Shown here piece after piece: positions 24,781-25,002 of a stretch of 64,000 nt of DNA. The position numbers and the translations under genes are program-made. The stretch covers positions 62,001-126,000 of the forward strand of contig JAKVLB010000006.1 in the NCBI GenBank assembly GCA_022484595.1, in the 5' to 3' direction. The number at the start of each line of letters is the position of its first letter. The stretch's first letter is position 1. The stretch is from Mageeibacillus sp. Its GTDB lineage: Bacteria; Bacillota; Clostridia; Saccharofermentanales; Saccharofermentanaceae. Under the pieces are notes generated by a model. It searched no databases. It was given only the letters and a program-made list of their open reading frames with translations, and was not told the origin of the DNA.

Positions 24781-24819
24781 AAACAAAAACGCTGCACGTT
24801 CCTTGGGGTTCGTGCAGCG
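24781..24819 (-). terminator. Attenuator terminator before aroF
   Basis: On the minus strand CGCTGCACG (24819-24811) pairs perfectly with CGTGCAGCG (24798-24790), then TTTTTGTTT. It lies between the leader peptide stop and the aroF start, so it would stop transcription before the operon. Its 5' arm can also pair with CAGTGC inside the leader-peptide coding region (one G-U pair), giving an alternative antiterminator. Confidence 0.88.
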
Positions 24820-24865
24820 CATCTATTCAAAACAATTGGTTAACTAATTCTCGTTTTGCTTTGTA

Positions 24866-24943
24866 TCACACACAAACCGCTTCGGCACTGTTGCTAAAGT
24901 AGTAATAATAGTTAAATGCGTAATAAAAAGCCGCAGTCTTCAT
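24866..24943 (-). CDS. Phe/Tyr-rich leader peptide of the aro operon
   Basis: A 25-residue reading frame with AGGAGA eight bases before its ATG. It begins MKTAAFYYAFN and carries Phe at 6, 10 and 16 and Tyr at 7, 8 and 12-15: nine aromatic residues in eleven positions (6-16). The stop is followed by an intrinsic terminator and then aroF. This is the classical form of a ribosome-mediated attenuator: stalling at Phe/Tyr codons when charged tRNA is scarce would free the transcript to form an antiterminator. Both translation signals and the terminator are visible; the switch itself is inferred. Confidence 0.9.
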   Translation of the reverse strand: MKTAAFYYAFNYYYYFSNSAEAVCV

Positions 24944-24972
24944 CAAATATCTCCTAGTGAAAAACTGCGGTT

Positions 24973-25002
24973 ATTAAAGCACAAAACGTCTTATGTTGTC
25001 AA
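24973..25002 (-). promoter_or_regulatory. Promoter of the aro operon
   Basis: TTGACA (25002-24997) and TTTAAT (24978-24973) are separated by 18 bp, close to the sigma-70/SigA consensus. Transcription would begin near 24966, about 20 nt before the leader peptide ATG. Confidence 0.8.

Follow-up and report, generated by a model that had tools for sequence, protein, structure and literature searches.

The window, that is the whole 64,000-nucleotide stretch of Mageeibacillus sp. DNA analysed here, harbours a row of genes for aromatic amino acid biosynthesis (Table 1). The first of them is aroF, encoding DAHP synthase, and we infer from the close spacing that it is co-transcribed with the genes behind it. 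One of these (19481-17904, minus strand) encodes a single 525 amino acid protein with chorismate mutase, shikimate dehydrogenase N-terminal and shikimate kinase domains, as assigned by Pfam. The last gene of the row probably encodes an aroQ-type dehydroquinase.

The region upstream of aroF was predicted, from the DNA letters alone, to contain a promoter of the form TTGACA-N18-TTTAAT, a 25-codon frame with a ribosome binding site, nine Phe or Tyr residues among the eleven positions 6-16 of that frame, and a perfect 9-bp terminator with a T-tract. All of these are present. The short open reading frame (ORF), with its own start codon and ribosome binding site, lies behind the promoter, and its positions 6-16 read FYYAFNYYYYF. 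The intrinsic terminator is located between this leader ORF and aroF and consists of nine perfect pairs around a 12-nt loop, followed by TTTTT; its energy is -19.3 kcal/mol when a flanking G.U pair and inner pairs are counted. The 218-nt leader RNA as a whole folds with a z-score of -4.5.

Table 1. Location of the leader elements and operon genes in the window
Feature	Coordinates	Strand	Basis
Promoter TTGACA-N18-TTTAAT	25002-24973 (TTGACA 25002-24997; 18-nt spacer; TTTAAT 24978-24973)	(-)	Sequence
Ribosome binding site AGGAG of the leader ORF, 7 nt 5' of the ATG	24955-24951	(-)	Sequence
Leader ORF, 25 codons, MKTAAFYYAFNYYYYFSNSAEAVCV, ATG at 24943	24943-24866	(-)	Sequence, conservation, codon pattern
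Likely antiterminator arm GGTTTGTGTGTG, overlapping the leader stop codon	24878-24867	(-)	Duplex energy, covariation, pairing compared with shuffles
Accessory hairpin (24858-24851 with 24835-24828), between both antiterminator arms	24858-24828	(-)	Minimum-energy fold, stalled-ribosome model
Intrinsic terminator	5' arm 24819-24811, loop 24810-24799, 3' arm 24798-24790	(-)	Sequence, covariation
T-tract of the terminator	24789-24785	(-)	Sequence
aroF, DAHP synthase, first gene of the operon	24754-23756	(-)	Pfam DAHP_synth_1 (4e-76) and DAHP_snth_FXD
tyrA, aroB, aroA, aroC and fused chorismate mutase/shikimate dehydrogenase/shikimate kinase, all in one direction	23753-17904	(-)	Pfam
Probable aroQ-type dehydroquinase, last gene of the row	17891-17460	(-)	ORF; name from sequence reading

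The leader is conserved within the genus. We compared 30 aroF loci, the window's own included, and found the leader in 29 of them. Of the 29 loci with an upstream region of 300 nt or more, 28 have an ORF before aroF in which seven or more of 12 residues are Phe or Tyr, compared with none of 580 dinucleotide shuffles and none of the 29 reverse strands; the length limit removed one of the 30 genus regions from this test, and two of 80 and two of 120 from the two larger sets described below. In relatives, a TTTAAT-like -10 box and the leader following it stay together. Loss of the aromatic codons with the hairpin kept, a pattern named beforehand as evidence against an attenuator, was seen in a single locus of the 30 (L019), where the leader frame is broken and approximately 29 nt are missing in a by-eye comparison with the near relative L027. 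In this locus, from genome G020, the frame becomes MLLLLL followed by a stop codon, while the hairpin and the promoter remain; the deletion may be genuine or may stem from faulty assembly.

From 35 leaders, belonging to the genus and to the named relatives closest to it, we built a covariance model. It matches 57 of the 59 genomes of the genus, each with one strong match. No match to the model was found in genomes G013, which also lacks an aroF match, and G339. Genome G034 has a second, partial match (E = 0.005). It should be noted that the first 50 candidates per genome were scored, so that weak second copies of the leader could be lost.

Aromatic ORFs upstream of aroF extend well beyond the genus. 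The named set holds 80 loci picked by AroF similarity, being the best 80 among the matches listed and not a random sample; labels of metagenome-assembled genomes in this set, such as Treponema and Bacteroidaceae, were taken as given. Of the 78 regions that could be tested here, 59 contain an ORF reaching seven or more aromatic residues in 12; among 1560 shuffles, 11 do. In the class-level sample the corresponding numbers are 44 of 118 regions, 18 of 2360 shuffles and one of 118 reverse strands. Over all three sets the test is positive for Phe/Tyr in 131 of 225 regions, and other residue pairs tried reach at most 21 of 225 (Leu/Ile). Thus, the aromatic ORF before aroF is far above chance in all three sets. 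Among 40 regions from other classes of the phylum, one per genome and taken from near the top of the list with a few skipped, seven reach the threshold of seven in 12.

The class sample covers 120 upstream regions from 95 genomes, among the matches listed, where at least 109 of 146 genomes have an aroF match; it includes two genomes of the window's genus (G107 and G131), and the window's own genome and G006 were left out. A leader together with an analysed terminator was found for 41 of the 120 aroF copies, in 41 of the 95 genomes and 23 of the 46 families. By the criteria used, 62 of the 120 copies have neither a leader with terminator nor a T-box. In the leader loci, tyrA is found downstream of aroF in 78 of 89, whereas carD, the gene upstream of the leader in the window, precedes it in only 28 of 89. 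The leader therefore travels with the aroF operon and not with carD.

In total, 133 leaders were collected, and a terminator follows 128 of them; the terminator finder used for these counts had looser rules than the strict one used for the genus set. Five of the 133 (L008, L080, L204, L227 and L235) were dropped before the antiterminator was counted; three of them, L204, L227 and L235, may be something other than leaders. Carriers available in culture include Sporobacter termitidis DSM 10068 (L068), Angelakisella massiliensis (L087) and Emergencia sp. 1XD21-10 (L044). Six of the 128 have no ribosome binding site core within 20 nt. In four loci (L030, L034, L037 and L064) a full TTGACA box is followed after 17-18 nt by a -10 box that ends 6-7 nt before the leader ATG. 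L030, L034 and L037 are without a ribosome binding site core, and the motif match of L064 falls at its promoter. Because the -10 box lies so close to the ATG, the sensor ORF in these four loci would start on a leaderless mRNA. A leader peptide without a ribosome binding site has been reported in print for ilvBNC of Corynebacterium glutamicum, judging from a title cited in PMC4046766.

The Phe/Tyr codons are kept in relatives and drift mainly by synonymous change and by exchange of Phe and Tyr. For the final seven codons of the run, codon differences of a single base among the 35 relatives were counted pairwise over related sequences and are thus not independent events: 68.5% are synonymous, 17.9% exchange Phe and Tyr and 13.5% are other changes. 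Random point changes in the same run would give 11.7%, 9.7% and 78.6%, respectively. The codon pattern indicates that the leader ORF is under purifying selection, and the conserved run is one of codons for end products of the pathway encoded downstream. The 128 leaders contain 637 Phe and 590 Tyr codons, with at least two of each in 122. That an aromatic residue is kept while Phe and Tyr swap is what one would expect of a sensor for both amino acids, but it is no proof of Tyr sensing: the aroF leader of C. glutamicum, with the sequence Phe-Tyr-Phe, is reported in a review to respond to Phe and not to Tyr (PMC11802643). Eleven of the 128 leaders (L090, L131, L145, L152, L153, L163, L175, L178, L179, L195 and L197) have a Trp codon inside the Phe/Tyr span, and some lineages might for this reason read all three aromatic amino acids.

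The terminator 5' arm was originally predicted to find its antiterminator partner in the motif CAGTGC within the leader peptide region, pairing with GCGCTG. These 6 bp can form (-9.3 kcal/mol), but the relatives in the alignment have not retained CAGTGC, and a stronger partner was found. The arm GGTTTGTGTGTG pairs with positions 24819-24817 and 24815-24807, that is with the terminator 5' arm and loop, through 12 pairs with one bulged base (-15.8 kcal/mol). We consider this arm the likely antiterminator and have set the CAGTGC pairing aside.

Compensatory changes are seen in the terminator as well as in this alternative helix. The antiterminator helix joins columns 79-89 to columns 145-155 in the alignment of the 35 relatives. 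It is 87.5% paired, three of its pairs have changed on both sides, and its covariation score is 0.306, compared with a mean of 0.168 for shuffles, none of 500 being as high; slid versions of the helix reach at most 0.116. Two further covariation measures for this helix, the number of doubly changed pairs and the number of pair types, were no higher in the 35 relatives than in shuffles. The terminator is 88.4% paired in the same alignment, with six pairs changed on both sides and a covariation score of 0.282 compared with 0.163 for shuffles. Column 148 is shared by the two helices and varies with its partners in both. RNAalifold recovered only the terminator from the genus alignment, which is to be expected since the two folds are mutually exclusive.

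Outside the genus, the arm of each locus pairs better with its own terminator than do the arms of other loci. For 93 loci the energy is -14.45 kcal/mol for the own arm and -9.94 kcal/mol for arms of other loci on the same terminator (Wilcoxon p = 1.6e-16, an optimistic value because the loci are related), and the own arm ranks in the best 5% at 38 of the 93. Compared with shuffled arms, the best pairing between arm and terminator has a mean z-score of -2.4 over the 128 loci, and p = 0.05 is reached in 61% and missed in 39%. The window's own antiterminator has p = 0.06 in this comparison.

The geometry would allow a stalled ribosome to leave the arm free. The arm starts 17 nt past the last aromatic codon in the window; the median is also 17 nt, and the distance is at least 10 nt in 124 of the 128 loci. 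The leader stop codon, TGA, is inside the arm in the window. Assuming a footprint of commonly accepted size, a ribosome that has reached the stop codon would cover the arm in 117 of 128 loci. A pairing of the codon region with the arm, which would act as a protector, is seen in the full-length fold of the window; its mean z-score is -0.02 in the genus, not above shuffles, and -1.8 and -1.6 in the other two sets. When a stalled ribosome is modelled on the window RNA, the terminator keeps its advantage at equilibrium, and the antiterminator is favoured only as long as the terminator 3' arm has yet to be transcribed. A switch between the two would thus have to be kinetic. Attenuators are generally held to act in this way.

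Based on the parts at the locus, their conservation, the constraint on the codons and the covariation of two alternative helices, we suggest that the leader is a ribosome-mediated transcription attenuator, through which the charging state of tRNA-Phe, and probably that of tRNA-Tyr, would set transcription of the shikimate/tyrosine operon. This is the reading first proposed for the locus, and codon conservation together with compensatory changes in both helices supports it; we put its probability at about 0.87. We infer that the leader is translated and that the switch would work as follows. When the tRNAs are charged, the ribosome would run through the aromatic codons to the stop codon and cover the overlapping antiterminator arm, so that the terminator hairpin forms and transcription ends. 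When charging is low, the ribosome would stall in the aromatic run and leave the arm free to pair with the emerging terminator 5' arm and loop, and polymerase would read on into aroF.

Two other explanations deserve consideration, both of which we regard as improbable. The short ORF could encode a functional small aromatic-rich peptide, for example a membrane peptide, with the hairpin being the ordinary terminator of that gene. Purifying selection on the ORF would look alike in this case, but Phe and Tyr exchange freely, and the part past the aromatic run varies or ends early. The covariation of the arm with the terminator also speaks against it, as does a TTTGTG motif in the arm, held by 42 of the 128 loci. 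In 21 of these loci the motif follows the stop codon; in the others it falls within the ORF, in one frame at 14 and in another at 7, so that the RNA and not the peptide appears to be conserved there. Alternatively, the hairpin could govern access to the aroF ribosome binding site. Leader ORFs can indeed work by translational control or reinitiation. Against such a role at this locus stand the T-tract behind the hairpin and the fact that, in the window, the hairpin ends 36 nt 5' of the aroF start and leaves the aroF ribosome binding site outside; a terminator hairpin with a T-tract is likewise the rule among the collected leaders (128 of 133).

Some aroF copies of the class have a T-box before them (14 of 120 regions at the Rfam cut-off), but a T-box, or another tRNA- or metabolite-binding leader beside which the aromatic ORF would be incidental, is a highly improbable explanation for the window. 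Here an Rfam 15 search gave no family at cut-off, T-box (RF00230) included, and no receptor fold with covariation behind it was seen in the leader. The aromatic ORF, moreover, is of a kind found far above chance and accompanied by a T-box, whether by model or by core motif, in none of the 41 class-sample copies with leader and terminator. The preferred reading, a ribosome-mediated attenuator, shares with the T-box the sensing of tRNA charging and an ending in a terminator, whereas the T-box binds the tRNA directly and has no leader ORF. In the same search of the 120 class-sample loci the T-box was the only family to reach its cut-off, and no amino acid leader family did so. An exact T-box core motif added three copies, giving 17 copies in 17 genomes and nine families; as the Rfam cut-off of 93 bits is strict, T-boxes are undercounted. 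Leader and T-box occur together in no copy and in no genome, and one family has both.

The genome of the window has a T-box match of 73.8 bits, below the Rfam cut-off, directly before trpE (C2:95854-94958; loci L115 and L297). As a leader peptide precedes aroF in the same genome, the Trp branch and the Phe/Tyr branch seem to use different sensors. The pheA gene of this genome was also located. A search of the genome for runs of five Phe/Tyr codons gave 20 sites, compared with 45 for a reversed-pattern control; a second leader is possible, since shorter runs would be missed. Around these sites, apart from the aroF leader, short ORFs at three (L245, L246 and L255) pass the threshold of seven in 12 and were judged not to be leader-like.

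Leader-peptide attenuators are textbook knowledge for enteric bacteria; in Firmicutes, the same genes are commonly associated with T-boxes. The attenuator described here is of this known kind, with the same principle as in enteric bacteria, and is unexpectedly widespread in a group for which the principle has rarely been described. A literature search, with subscription literature mostly outside it, found no publication on a Phe/Tyr leader before aroF of Clostridia. The enteric pheA (pheL) and pheST leaders likewise combine Phe codons, a terminator and an antiterminator, whereas their target genes and sequences are different and they read Phe only; they are among the leaders treated in PMC11802643.

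The nearest precedent is the aroR leader before aroF of C. glutamicum (Neshat et al. 2014, as presented in PMC11802643 and PMC4046766). Like the leader described here, it has Phe and Tyr codons in a leader peptide frame upstream of an operon for DAHP synthase, and ribosome stalling relieves attenuation. Unlike the clostridial leaders, it belongs to an actinobacterium and has only Phe-Tyr-Phe, compared with 7-11 aromatic residues in 12 here, and the two are likened by description and not by sequence. The uORFC-13-1 motif before aroF of Acholeplasma is a predicted short ORF that contains one or more Phe codons and comes with a promoter, a ribosome binding site and a terminator; PMC8632094 gives 24 representatives, from Acholeplasma and unknown environmental sequences only. 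Compared by description only, it may be a relative of the clostridial leader. Naville and Gautheret (2010) found His leaders in bacilli and stated that they knew of no earlier demonstration of a leader peptide system outside Proteobacteria and Actinobacteria (PMC2965389). His attenuators were predicted in 17 Firmicutes genomes in 2022 (PMC9413887), and a Leu-rich attenuator peptide is described for Staphylococcus aureus (PMC5794164). These are leader-peptide attenuators in Firmicutes as well, for other amino acids and genes.

The attenuator is found before DAHP synthase in half of the sampled families of the class, and Rfam has no family that covers it at cut-off. It very probably enables many gut and rumen bacteria to turn on the aromatic amino acid pathway when charged tRNA for Phe and Tyr is low. 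The response of many gut and rumen Clostridia to aromatic amino acids would then become predictable from sequence, and a class of small ORFs likely missed by gene callers is added. As one genome has both the T-box match before trpE and the leader before aroF, the class also offers a natural series for asking when evolution picks the ribosome and when direct tRNA binding as the sensor. More tentatively, and as an idea that we hold to be possible rather than probable, we speculate that a single old family, reading Phe and Tyr charging together and including a Trp codon in some lineages, would be a main mode of transcriptional control of the shikimate pathway across much of the Clostridia, where T-boxes would be the alternative. 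In such a family one RNA antiterminator element would have been kept while the peptide frame over it drifted, and a few lineages would have the sensor ORF on a leaderless mRNA.

Two further observations concern the surroundings of the leader. In the window (24970-24931, minus strand) the first transcript bases, CCGCAGT, pair with codons 3-5 (ACTGCGG) of the leader, which is of the MKTA type. The resulting hairpin, of about -15 to -22 kcal/mol, encloses the leader's own ribosome binding site and start codon and is followed by T-rich sequence. It is present in 24 of the 35 relatives and absent from 11, and might slow initiation at the leader or make polymerase pause. Upstream of the carD-like gene, two adjacent genes (27666-25753, minus strand) match the PADLOC models AbiLi (8.8e-90) and AbiLii (3.3e-21) and probably constitute an AbiL-type phage defence pair.
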